Below are positions 55,692 through 60,011 of a stretch of DNA of 64,000 nucleotides, in pieces. The translations under genes and the position numbers were made by a program. Location of the stretch: positions 248,001-312,000 of the forward strand of contig NZ_NPKQ01000001.1 in assembly GCF_008329525.1 (NCBI RefSeq), read 5' to 3'. Numbering within the stretch: position 1 is the first letter of the stretch; every line of letters starts with the position of its first letter. This stretch comes from Tardiphaga sp. P9-11 (GTDB lineage: Bacteria; Pseudomonadota; Alphaproteobacteria; Rhizobiales; Xanthobacteraceae). The notes below the pieces were generated by a model. It made no database searches. It was not told the origin of the DNA and saw only the letters and a list, made by a program, of their open reading frames with translations.

Positions 55692-56462
55692 ATGAAGACA
55701 ATGGATCAGCCGGGCGAAACCACCCATTTCGGCTTCAGGGACGTCCCCGTGGGCGACAAGCAGACCCTGGTGAACGATGTGTTCCACAGCGTCGCCCAGC
55801 GCTACGACCTGATGAACGATCTGATGTCCGGCGGCATGCATCGCGTCTGGAAGGACGTGATGATCAACGCGCTCAACCCACCGCGCTCGGATGCCCCCTT
55901 TGCCCTGCTGGACGTTGCCGGCGGCACCGGCGACATCTCGTTCCGCGCCGCCAGGGCGTCAGGCCTCGGCTTCAGCTCGACCGTCTGCGACATCAATACG
56001 GGCATGCTGGACGTCGGCCGCGAGCGCGCCATCAAGCAGCATCTCGAACATCAGGTGACCTTCGTCGAGGGTAACGCCGAAGAGTTGCCATTCGCCGACA
56101 AGAGCTATGACGCCTATACGATCGCCTTCGGCATCCGCAACGTGCCGCGCATCGACCGCGCGCTCGCTGAAGCCTATCGCGTGCTGAAGCCGGGCAGCCG
56201 TTTTCTCTGCCTCGAATTCTCAACCGTCGATGTGCCGGGCCTCGACAAGATCTATGACCTGTTCTCGTTCAAGGTTATCCCGCCGCTCGGTAAGGCGGTC
56301 ACCGGCGACTCCGAATCCTATCAGTATCTCGTGGAATCGATCCGCAAGTTTCCGAAGCCGCCAATTTTCGCCGACATGATCCGCAATGCAGGCTTTTCGC
56401 GCGTGAAGTACGAACTCCTCTCAGGCGGCATCGTCGCGCTGCATTCGGGCTGGCGTTTGTGA
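55692..56462 (+). CDS. ubiE: Demethylmenaquinone / 2-methoxy-6-polyprenyl-1,4-benzoquinol methyltransferase
   Basis: 256 residues from ATG 55692; an ATG three codons later is an alternative. Seen are the SAM-binding [16 protein letters not shown] and the UbiE signatures [18 protein letters not shown] and [13 protein letters not shown]. Two copies of TTTGAGATGAA upstream (55668 and 55687 regions) look like a small tandem duplication. Its stop overlaps the GTG start of ubiB by four bases. Both work in ubiquinone synthesis. Confidence 0.95.
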
Positions 56463-58027
56463 TCGCTGCTTTCTCTCATATGGCGCGGCTTGCCCGCGCC
56501 GGTTTCGTGTTTGCGCGCGAAGGCGTGTTCGGCGTCGTCGATCCTTCGCTGGTGCCGCCACCGGGGCAACTCGCACTGCGCATGGCGCGGCTGATCGAAC
56601 GACCCGGCGCAAAATCCGGCGCACGGCTGTCGCGCGCGCTGACGCGGCTCGGCCCGGCCTATCTCAAGCTTGGGCAGTTTCTCGCGACCCGTCCCGACGT
56701 GGTCGGCGTTGCCATGGCGCGCGATCTCGAAAGCCTGCAGGACAGGCTGCCGCCATTCTCCCTGACCGAAGCCGAAGGCGTCGTCGCCGCTTCGCTGGAA
56801 CGCCCTGTGGCGCAGCTCTATGCGAGCTTCAGCCCGCCGGTCGCCGCGGCCTCGATCGCGCAGGTGCATCGCGCCGAGATCGACAAGGATGGTGTCCGCA
56901 AAACCTACGCCGTGAAAGTGCTGCGCCCAAACGTCGCCGCGCAATTCCGCCGCGACCTCGGCGATTTCGCTTATGTCGCGCACAAGGCCGAAGAACATTT
57001 TTCTGAAGCGCGCCGCCTTCGCCTGATCGAAATCATCACCACCATGTCGCGCTCGGTGGCGATGGAGATGGATCTGCGATTGGAAGCTGCGGCACTCTCC
57101 GAGATGGCGGAGAACACCCGCAACGATCCCGACTTCCGCGTGCCGGAAGTAGACTGGGATCGCACCTCGCATAACGTGCTGACGATGGAGTGGATCGACG
57201 GCATCGCGCTGAACGATCACAAGCGCCTGGAAGAATCCAACGTCGATCTTCCGGATCTCGGCCGCAAGGTGATCCAGAGCTTTCTGCGCCACGCGCTGCG
57301 TGACGGCTTTTTCCACGCCGATATGCATCCGGGCAATCTGTTCCTCGATCCAGACGGCCGCCTCGTCGCTGTCGATTTCGGCATCATGGGCCGGCTCGGG
57401 CTGAAGGAGCGCCGCTTCCTCGCCGAGATTCTGCTGGGCTTCATCACCCGCAACTATCGCCGCGTCGCCGAAGTACACTTCGAGGCCGGCTATGTGCCCG
57501 GTCACCATTCAGTAGAAAATTTCGCGCAGGCGATCCGCGCCATCGGCGAGCCGATTCACAATCGCACGGCCGAAGAAATCTCGATGGCCAAGCTGCTGAC
57601 GCTGCTGCTCGAGGTCACCGGCCTCTTTGACATGCGCACGCGGCCGGAATTGATCCTGCTGCAGAAGACCATGGTCGTGGTCGAAGGCGTCGCGCGAAGC
57701 TTCGATCCCAAGCTCGATATCTGGAAGGTCGCCGATCCCGTCGTCCGCGAATGGATCGAACGCAATCTCGGACCGCTCGGCAAAATCCAGGGCGCCCTCT
57801 CCGGCGCCGGTGAACTCGGCAAGGTCGCCGGCAGCCTGCCGGCCATGGCGACCCGCGCACTGACGATGCTCGAACAGTTGGAGACCATGACCCGTGACGG
57901 CGTCCGGCTCGACGATGCGACCATCGCCGCCATCGCACGGGCGCGAGCCAAGCAGCTCCGCTGGCGCACGGTCGGCGTCTGGGTGATCGCGCTGTCGTTC
58001 CTGGGACTGCTGCTCTCGATTCGCTAA
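56459..58027 (+). CDS. ubiB: Ubiquinone biosynthesis kinase-like protein UbiB
   Basis: 522 residues from the GTG at 56459 in a GTGA overlap with ubiE. The ADCK/UbiB signature KxGQ is present in [16 protein letters not shown], with the atypical Ala-rich loop AAASIAQVH and the AVKVL lysine; ADMHPGN and VDFGIMG give the kinase Asp residues. Two C-terminal hydrophobic helices anchor it to the membrane. It is required for ubiquinone production. Confidence 0.95.
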
Positions 58028-58039
58028 CGATTGATTGCA

Positions 58040-58071
58040 ATGACGGCACTTTATGCTAGCACTGCTGTCAT
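58040..58071. promoter_or_regulatory. Palindromic element in front of the RHH-coaBC gene
   Basis: ATGACGGCA (58040-58048) and TGCTGTCAT (58063-58071) are inverted half-sites differing at one position, flanking a perfect 8-bp palindrome TGCTAGCA (58054-58061). The whole lies 19-50 bases before the ATG. The half-sites resemble TGCTATCA-type sites of FitA-like antitoxins. Confidence 0.55.
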
Positions 58072-58089
58072 AATGAGCGTGAGATCATC

Positions 58090-59550
58090 ATGGCCAGCCT
58101 GACTATCCGCAAACTCGACGACGCGATCCGGGATGAGCTGAGATTGCGTGCGGCCAGGAATGGCCGGTCGGTCGAGGACGAGGTGCGGGTCATTTTGCGC
58201 GCGGCGTCGCAAGACGGCCTCAAGCCTGACGCAAGTTTTTCGCAAGACACGCCACCCCCCGAAAACCAACCCAAGCCCTTGAAAAACATCGGTGATCAGC
58301 TCCGTGTGACGCTAATCATCGGCGGCGGCATCGCGGCCTATAAATCGCTCGATCTGATCCGCCGGCTGAAGGAGCGCCACATCCATGTCCGCGTGGTGCT
58401 GACCCGCGCCGCGCAGCAATTCGTCACGCCACTGGCCGCCAGCGCCCTCTCCAACGAGCGCGCCTATACCGACCTATTCGACCCGCAGAGCGAATTCGAC
58501 GCCGGGCATATCCGTCTTGCGCGCGAATGCGATCTGATCGTCGTGGCGCCTGCCACTGCGGACCTGATGGCGAAGATGGCCAATGGTCATGCCGACGATC
58601 TGGCCTCCGCGATTCTTCTGGCCGCCGACAAACCGATCATGATTGCGCCGGCGATGAATCCGCTGATGTGGAATAACGCTGCGACGCGCCGCAACGTCGC
58701 GCAATTGCAGCGCGACGGCATCAGGATGATCGGGCCGAATGCCGGCGAGATGGCGGAGCGCAACGAAGCCGGCGTGGGTCGCATGGCAGAGCCGACCGAA
58801 ATCGCCATCGCGGCTCACATATTCCTGCGGCCGCCCCGCGCGCAGCCGCTGGCGGGCAAACGCGTGCTGATCACGGCGGGCCCGACCCATGAGCCCATCG
58901 ATCCCGTGCGCTACATCGCCAATCGCTCGTCAGGCAAACAGGGCTATGCGATCGCCGCCGCGGCGCGCGCTGCCGGCGCCGAGGTCATTCTCGTGTCTGG
59001 CCCGGTCGATCTTGATGACGTCGAAGGCGCCACCATGACCCATGTCGAATCCGCACGCGACATGCTCGCTGCGGTCGAGGCGGCACTTCCCGTCGACATC
59101 GCGATCTTCGCGGCAGCCGTGGCCGACTGGCGTGCCGTCAATGAGGGCGTGCAGAAACTGAAGAAGACGGCAGGCAACGCCATGCCGCCACTGCAGCTCA
59201 TGGAAAATCCCGACATCCTCGCGACGATCTCGAAACTCCCCGAGCATCGGCCGCCGCTGGTGATCGGCTTCGCCGCCGAGACCGAGCACCTGATCGACAA
59301 TGCGAAAGCCAAGATTGCGCGCAAGGGTTGCGACTGGATCGTCGCCAACGACGTCTCGCCCGCGACCGGCATCATGGGCGGAGACAACAACACCGTGCAT
59401 CTGCTGACGCGAGCTAAGGACAGCGCCGATATCGCCGTTGATTCATGGGCACCGATGAGCAAGGAACAGGTCGCAATGACCTTGGTCGCGCGAATCGCCG
59501 ACGCGGTGACATCAGATAAATCGACGCAATCCACGAAAGATACATCATGA
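58090..59550 (+). CDS. coaBC: CoaBC with N-terminal ribbon-helix-helix (FitA-like) domain
   Basis: 486 residues. Residues 1-40 ([20 protein letters not shown]...[13 protein letters not shown]) are an RHH DNA-binding domain of the FitA/VapB type. A Pro-rich linker of about 30 residues follows, then CoaC ([26 protein letters not shown] with the His, PAMNPLMW with the Asn) and CoaB ([36 protein letters not shown]). The usual ACG cysteine motif is absent: [14 protein letters not shown]. CoaBC converts phosphopantothenate to phosphopantetheine. The ATG of dut overlaps the stop. No methionine codon separates the two modules. Confidence 0.93.
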
Positions 59551-60011
59551 GCGCCGCCATCCCCGTTCAGGTCGACGTCCAGCAGCTCCCGCATGGTGCA
59601 GGCCTCGCGCTGCCGGCCTATCAGACCGCACATGCTGCCGGCCTCGATCTGCTCGCCGCGGTTCCCGAGGACCAGCCGATGATTCTCGCTCGCGGTAAAT
59701 ATGCGCTGGTGCCGACCGCGCTGACTATCGCACTACCGGCGGGCTATGAAGCGCAGGTGCGCCCGCGCTCGGGCCTTGCCGCCAAGCACGGCGTGACCGT
59801 GCTGAATTCACCGGGCACCATCGATGCCGATTACCGCGGCGAGATCGGCGTGCTCCTGATCAATCACGGCGCGACGGATTTCACGATCAGGCGCGGCGAG
59901 CGAATCGCACAGATGGTGATCGCACCGGTCACGCATGCGGAACTCGTGGTGGCCGCGGCGCTGAGCGAGACCGAACGCGGCAGCGGCGGCTTCGGATCGA
60001 CCGGCCGATAG
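59547..60011 (+). CDS. dut: dUTPase
   Basis: 154 residues. The five dUTPase motifs are visible: [52 protein letters not shown] and the glycine-rich [11 protein letters not shown] end. It hydrolyses dUTP to dUMP. Its ATG overlaps the coaBC stop (ATGA), a coupling conserved in relatives. Confidence 0.97.

Follow-up and report, generated by a model that had tools for sequence, protein, structure and literature searches.

The coaBC gene of the window, by which we mean the whole 64,000-nucleotide stretch analysed (C12:248001-312000 of a 6.16-Mb genome), encodes a predicted ribbon-helix-helix (RHH) DNA-binding domain of the FitA type joined to CoaBC, an essential enzyme of coenzyme A synthesis. Judging from this sequence and those of its relatives, we consider it highly probable that the product is an autorepressing "trigger enzyme" that arose by domestication of a fitA antitoxin together with the operator of its module. 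RHH proteins bind as dimers, and in the mechanism proposed here RHH dimers, tethered to the CoaC/CoaB oligomer through a flexible linker, would occupy TGNNNNCA boxes in the ubiB-coaBC interval and obstruct the coaBC-dut promoter; a high level of CoaBC would then shut its own promoter. Both the RHH domain and the operator would descend from a fitA-fitB module formerly located directly upstream of coaBC, whose PIN toxin would have been lost and whose antitoxin DNA-binding part would have become an in-frame extension of CoaBC, on one or perhaps several occasions.

The original prediction had described an in-frame fusion of RHH domain, linker and CoaBC, and this was borne out by a continuous ORF (58090-59550) with Pfam and TIGR00521 matches (Table 1). 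Pfam FitA-like_RHH covers residues 2-39 (E 1.1e-15 for the whole protein, 1.1e-16 for the N-terminal piece), and the 60.9 bits scored with PF22513, against a gathering score of 27, place the domain in the FitA-like RHH family. When the RHH was compared with PDB sequences by phmmer, two FitA (Trafficking protein A) chains, 2h1o/2bsq, ranked first (E about 0.008). Residues 72-469 correspond to a complete CoaBC (6tgv chain, E 9.1e-69), with Pfam Flavoprotein at residues 72-233 and DFP at residues 254-439, and the NCBIfam TIGR00521 score (382.5 bits; cut-off 219.7) is that of a full-length CoaC plus CoaB protein. It is the sole match in the window's genome at E 0.001. The PAMN motif and many invariant columns are common to fused and unfused CoaBC, and the window protein, whose activity is putative, appears to keep the conserved enzyme motifs. 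An enzyme and a predicted DNA-binding domain thus share a single chain, which is the architecture of a trigger enzyme; the window has no FitAB pair, as no PIN gene lies directly downstream and the RHH continues straight into CoaBC. The gene is preceded by ubiB in 28 of the 31 relatives checked. Co-transcription of coaBC and dut is likely because the dut ATG overlaps the coaBC stop, and dut would be transcribed from the coaBC promoter.

Table 1. Coordinates of the RHH-CoaBC gene, its domains, candidate operator units and neighbours in the window.
Feature	Position	Strand	Evidence and remarks
ubiB-type ABC1 kinase gene, usual left neighbour	56459..58027	+	Pfam ABC1 E 3.4e-75
Candidate operator unit A, TGATTGCA-A-TGACGGCA	58032..58048		11/14 of family consensus; position similar in fused relatives
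Candidate operator unit B, TGCTAGCA-C-TGCTGTCA	58054..58070		12/14 of family consensus; 22 bp from unit A, start to start
Whole RHH-CoaBC gene	58090..59550	+	single continuous ORF, ATG start, 486 aa
RHH domain, FitA type, residues 1-40	58090..58209	+	PF22513 E 1e-16; predicted DNA-binding
Variable Pro-rich linker, residues about 41-72	58210..58305	+	pN/pS 0.82; mean identity 28% over residues 41-69
CoaC domain, residues about 73-236	58306..58797	+	Pfam Flavoprotein; TIGR00521; PAMN motif
CoaB domain, residues about 254-469	58849..59496	+	Pfam DFP E 1.1e-68; chain 1u7u E 8.6e-43
dut (dUTPase)	59547..60011	+	Pfam dUTPase E 5.2e-33; ATG overlaps coaBC stop (ATGA)

One segment of CoaC (about 58744-58785) reads MAE plus one extra residue in the window and likewise in most of the Hyphomicrobiales loci listed, and MACG in the Roseovarius, Ruegeria and Parvibaculum loci. 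The active-site cysteine of E. coli CoaBC is thus missing where MAE is read, as in the window protein.

A fusion of this kind could be produced by gene calling if CoaBC truly started at GTG 58306 and the RHH lay in a frame of its own or were not translated. Within the window linker or at its end just two codons are start-like, TTG 58279 and GTG 58306; the latter is in frame and would yield a normal-looking CoaBC start. The window frame has no stop or break, however. Of the 92 fused loci, only 14 have GTG at the position corresponding to 58306, and 55 have GTC; a start inside the linker, named in the original prediction as one outcome that would refute it, therefore looks unlikely. Moreover, the frame persists through a linker of high variability, L061/G236 being the one exception noticed (here and below G denotes genomes, L loci and f1, f16, f24 and f32 families), and we regard the artefact as hardly credible. 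The apparent RHH loss in G236 was set aside as a frame break in a MAG, at seven consecutive C, its sequence being the same as that of L061.

Between ubiB and coaBC lies a candidate operator of two 17-bp units, TGNNNNCA-N-TGNNNNCA, 22-23 bp apart, which in the window gives four TGNNNNCA boxes (58032-58039, 58041-58048, 58054-58061 and 58063-58070). A palindrome had been proposed here as an TGCTAGCA core with two flanking half-sites. The palindrome is real; its register was incomplete, the first half-site TGATTGCA having been missed, and the core-and-flanks layout is replaced by that of four boxes. The window units are degenerate (Table 1) and weak evidence if taken alone; a repeat search at its thresholds reported nothing at the operator, and the stricter pattern of the 16-genome scan described below did not pick up the window's copy. 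Its significance derives from relatives, which carry conserved units.

To compare relatives, 186 loci with a CoaBC core were collapsed to 169 by merging identical 350-base stretches, and five further RHH loci were added by hand. The loci were chosen by similarity or long open frames, and the frequencies given here are not population estimates; nor are the locus counts independent, since the loci are related. Upstream of fused genes we found 17-bp units close to TGATNGCANTGCNATCA, often two of them. Counts and spacing are partly circular, because the consensus was drawn from these same loci: in the 150 bp preceding the start, the top unit scores at least 12/14 in 85 of 92 fused loci and 14/14 in 45; units of at least 11 within 320 bp (93 loci, comprising the 92 and the frame-broken L061) number two in 66, one in 25 and none in 2; and the spacing is 22 or 23 bp, about two helical turns, in 64 of the 66 two-unit loci. 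By comparison, none of 67 unfused loci scores 11 or more (maximum 10, scanning the 250 bp before the CoaBC core with no mapped start used), nor does any of nine XRE-fused loci (maximum 8), and over the 14 fixed positions the group means of shuffles lay between 8.1 and 8.9, no shuffle exceeding 12. A better test is given by families f24 and f16, which came to light later: with the consensus unchanged, all eight of their RHH-fused loci score 12-14, and f1, f16 and f24 loci without the RHH reach at most 9 (n=16). The predicted co-occurrence of fusion and palindrome thus holds, also beyond Nitrobacteraceae, and the units conserved in fused relatives support the notion of a FitA-style operator.

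Seven fused loci score below 12 in the 150-bp interval. Two of them (L057 and L059) score 10 and another two 11; the remaining three, L056, L149 and L160, have units far upstream, at -156 to -291, with scores of 11, 13 and 13. A leader of more than 130 bp separates the last operator unit from the start codon in these three loci.

Positions G2, C7, G11 and C16 are invariant among 78 distinct units, which makes a repeated 8-bp box, TGNNNNCA, the likely true element. The arrangement of the boxes resembles a repeat of TGNNNNCA more than a strict dyad. Covariation of the dyad was rejected as proof of a palindrome because it is weak: one of eight pairs stands out, a result reached by 16 of 1000 shuffles.

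Scanning 16 genomes with a stricter pattern, we found that nine of 12 exact sites lie at coaBC or fitAB-coaBC; five of the 16 genomes have none. A wider regulon is unsupported, because three of the 12 sites lie elsewhere versus seven sites for a reversed control pattern. A looser pattern matches the window's genome twice, at unit B of coaBC and on contig C16, the latter match being inside an open frame of 228 residues that resembles a TRAP-transporter subunit. In another genome a perfect operator-like palindrome (G065:C1:1399620-1399636; L213) was noticed 4.3 kb upstream of coaBC, shortly after the apparent end of another gene.

How the operator might act was considered in relation to the promoter. 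A search of positions 57950-58150 of the window gave no sigma-70-type promoter match. Across the fused loci, promoter-like sites (at least 8/12) are in modest excess, at 56 of 92 loci versus 24% of shuffles, and such a site overlaps the operator in 52 of the 54 loci having both within 120 bp, although overlap is easy to get in so short a stretch. We infer that the fused RHH binds operator DNA and represses, rather than activates, coaBC; the autoregulated coaBC-dut operon envisaged in the original prediction is accordingly likely, as far as can be judged from sequence. The RHH could instead bind the operator and activate, or act chiefly on promoter architecture, with no autorepression of coaBC. 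The position of the unit relative to the start ranges from about -30 to -290, and the coaBC promoter considered here is a predicted one, both of which leave room for such a role. The overlap of promoter-like site and operator, easy as it is to obtain, argues against it, as does the negative autoregulation of the type II systems RelBE, Kis-Kid and VapBC in the text available of PMC3920265, and we consider such a role improbable.

The RHH-CoaBC fusion is widespread in the window's family, where 292 of 296 genomes match the query and, among the matches listed, all but that in G236 begin at residue 1 or 2. One genome was taken from each of 46 other genera and 45 matched; the RHH is present in 27 of the 44 informative ones and absent in 17 (G020, with its CoaBC match in two pieces, is counted; G004 ends at a contig edge and is uninformative). 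Carriers include Bradyrhizobium, Rhodopseudomonas, Afipia, Nitrobacter and Pseudolabrys, and the RHH is absent from CoaBC of the Xanthobacter, Ancylobacter, Roseovarius and Ruegeria loci. A survey of the class with the window protein matched 299 of 385 genomes, residue 1 being reached, among the matches listed, by G000 and G024 only, both of the same family. The fusions of f16 and f24 were seen by reading locus N-termini, no genome of either family being among the class-survey matches listed.

The fusion is old and maintained. R7 is found in all 92 fused sequences and T5 in 88. For the window's genus (105 pairs from 15 loci) pN/pS was lowest for the RHH (0.085), followed by CoaC (0.138), CoaB (0.186) and the linker (0.816); the linker is therefore near-free while the frame is kept, and the RHH, the most constrained part measured, is under stronger purifying selection than the enzyme part. 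These values bear on the possibility that the RHH is an inert or purely structural (dimerisation) remnant and the palindromes relics of fitAB. Such ancestry could supply both without any present function. Yet the RHH is held more tightly than the enzyme, operators accompany the fusion and are absent where there is no RHH, and units persist far upstream in the three long-leader loci; we judge a remnant very improbable.

The ancestry of the domain is suggested by relatives in which open fitA and fitB frames stand directly upstream of coaBC. Nine such genomes were found in three families: G079; G044, G074 and G096, of one genus of the window's family; G535, of f24; and G616, G1055, G639 and G449, of f16. 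In G079, the interval from ubiB to coaBC holds FitA (PF22513 E 1.1e-19) and PIN (PF01850 E 1.7e-11), preceded by a perfect 14/14 unit; the best unit in the other eight scores 12 in six and 10 in G044 and G074, so that seven of the nine carry this operator (at least 12/14). Pfam confirmed the FitA-type RHH in the seven tested (G079, G535, G1055, G616, G639, G449 and G044) and the PIN domain in both frames tested (G079 and G535). UbiB was matched upstream of every module except that of G1055, for which the upstream stretch searched gave no match; the three decayed modules described next are included in this count. Decayed modules precede coaBC in three more genomes: G009 keeps FitA and has its PIN gene reduced to its two ends, in G472 the PIN gene is truncated and two perfect units persist, and G578 has a PIN gene, a disrupted FitA and no operator. 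A FitA-type gene precedes coaBC in eleven loci, of which seven score at least 12, three 10 and one 7. Not every unfused relative has fitAB; in g10 it was seen in G079 and G009 only, of six genomes read.

Because relatives carry fitA-fitB directly upstream of coaBC, the RHH is probably best read as a domesticated antitoxin. The original prediction, noting no PIN gene nearby, had dismissed a leftover antitoxin overlapping another gene; the former statement holds for the window, and the reading of the domain has to be corrected in the light of these modules. The order fitAB, toxin loss, fusion is the one we infer, since the reverse would need the toxin to be regained. One clade of f24 contains three states, namely fitAB (G535), neither (G551) and fused RHH-CoaBC (G398, G428 and G498). 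With regard to a single origin of the RHH fusion, a clade of the fused CoaBC cores (16 of 48 rows) was rejected on a quick LG+G4 tree (p-AU 2e-46). The core trees (126, 106 and 48 rows) include part of the fused loci only, L191 being left out of the 126-row tree as short, and many of their branches are weak; the failure of the fused cores to form a clade fits several fusions, losses, or both.

It might also be asked whether RHH-CoaBC still acts as antitoxin to an unlinked PIN toxin. Five of eight unlinked FitA-type genes in other family members have a PIN frame directly after them, and the other three are without the pattern searched for. Against this, the REPPRF-type C-terminal tail of several stand-alone FitA proteins is unrecognisable in the fused linkers, which evolve near-neutrally, and we find a retained antitoxin role extremely unlikely.

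Domestication into an autorepressing enzyme may be set beside known systems. PutA (proline dehydrogenase) is, as proposed for RHH-CoaBC, a metabolic enzyme that represses its own gene region, and its DNA-binding domain is an N-terminal RHH. It is a different enzyme of a different pathway, catabolic where RHH-CoaBC is biosynthetic, and for RHH-CoaBC the operator and the fitAB modules of relatives point to an antitoxin origin. BirA and NadR have HTH-type DNA-binding domains, and we know of no toxin-antitoxin ancestry for these trigger enzymes. In the accessible part of one account, PutA binds only the putA-putP spacer, and BirA, NadR and other trigger enzymes unite enzyme and transcription factor in a single chain (PMC8249747), as RHH-CoaBC does; BirA and NadR serve pathways other than that of CoA. 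FitA-FitB (VapBC-like) shares with RHH-CoaBC the RHH family and, in relatives, operator and place as well, but has a PIN toxin where RHH-CoaBC has CoaBC; FitA dimers, and four FitA-FitB heterodimers on a 36-bp operator, are described in the text available of PMC3920265. BzdR joins an XRE domain to a shikimate-kinase-like domain, a regulator evolved by HTH-enzyme joining according to the sections seen of PMC3602430; its enzyme domain lost activity, whereas RHH-CoaBC keeps its conserved motifs and has no second match in its genome.

The Mycobacterium CoaBC (6TGV) is the same enzyme as the CoaBC part of the window protein and lacks an N-terminal DNA-binding domain, since the alignment starts at residue 6 of the 415-residue 6tgv chain. 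In the excerpt available of PMC7794376 it forms a dodecamer built around CoaC, and CoA and acyl-CoAs inhibit its CoaB activity. If the window protein were also a dodecamer, its twelve RHH domains could pair into six dimers, sufficient to occupy four boxes simultaneously. Control by a ligand, CoA or its thioesters, is speculative.

In the open-licence literature we found no paper on a CoaBC with an RHH, DNA-binding or antitoxin fusion. The locus offers a candidate transcriptional loop for coaBC in Bradyrhizobium, Rhodopseudomonas, Afipia and Nitrobacter. It also offers a natural series, close relatives included, from toxin-antitoxin module to enzyme-repressor fusion (G535 with fitAB, G551 with neither, G398 and G428 fused), so that the domestication of an antitoxin for metabolic control can be tested directly.

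Other DNA-binding domains are joined to CoaBC as well, with Cro/C1-type HTH domains fused in two further lineages (f32-type; G357). In f32, CoaBC matches cover the N-terminal HTH part of L092 in seven genomes, and HTH_3 (PF01381) was above cut-off in the four f32-type loci tested (L092, L076, L082 and L119). The f32-type HTH-CoaBC loci noticed were L113-L119, L076, L082 and L092. TTAC-N7-GTAA stands just before the start in five of eight distinct f32-type loci (present in L113/L092, L114, L115, L116/L082 and L119; absent from L117, L118 and L076) and in neither of the two parsable unfused f32 loci, L248 and L249 being left out. G357 (f16) has a different HTH_3-CoaBC fusion (L190:1820-3247), preceded in this single genome by tandem GGATATATCC palindromes 19 bp apart (L190:1785-1820); in the other 27 genomes of its family no CoaBC match reaches the first 30 residues of the query.

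Judging from L172 and L173, described below, the junction of ubiB and coaBC seems to attract toxin-antitoxin genes; these two loci and the HTH fusions suggest either that coaBC under a bound repressor is repeatedly favoured or that the site often receives toxin-antitoxin modules. A broader proposal, which we put forward tentatively and think rather doubtful, is that the stretch before coaBC in Hyphomicrobiales repeatedly lets an essential enzyme capture toxin-antitoxin repressors, with independent fusions of FitA in three or more families and fusions of Cro/C1-type HTH in two or more further lineages; in each case CoaBC would replace the toxin as co-repressor, and occupancy of CoaB by CoA thioesters would set the grip of the multimer on the tandem operator.

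Some further loci deserve mention. L244 and L245 (G1057 and G494) carry on CoaBC an N-terminal domain of about 65 residues that looks HTH-like; with no Pfam or NCBIfam match for this domain, and nothing meaningful in a PDB sequence search with that of L244, it was left uncounted as DNA-binding. Upstream of L244 stands AGGATAAATCCT. Between ubiB and coaBC, and directly before the latter, L172 (G021) has a HicA gene with a HicB-like partner, and L173 (G030) a gene with weak likeness to an antidote gene.
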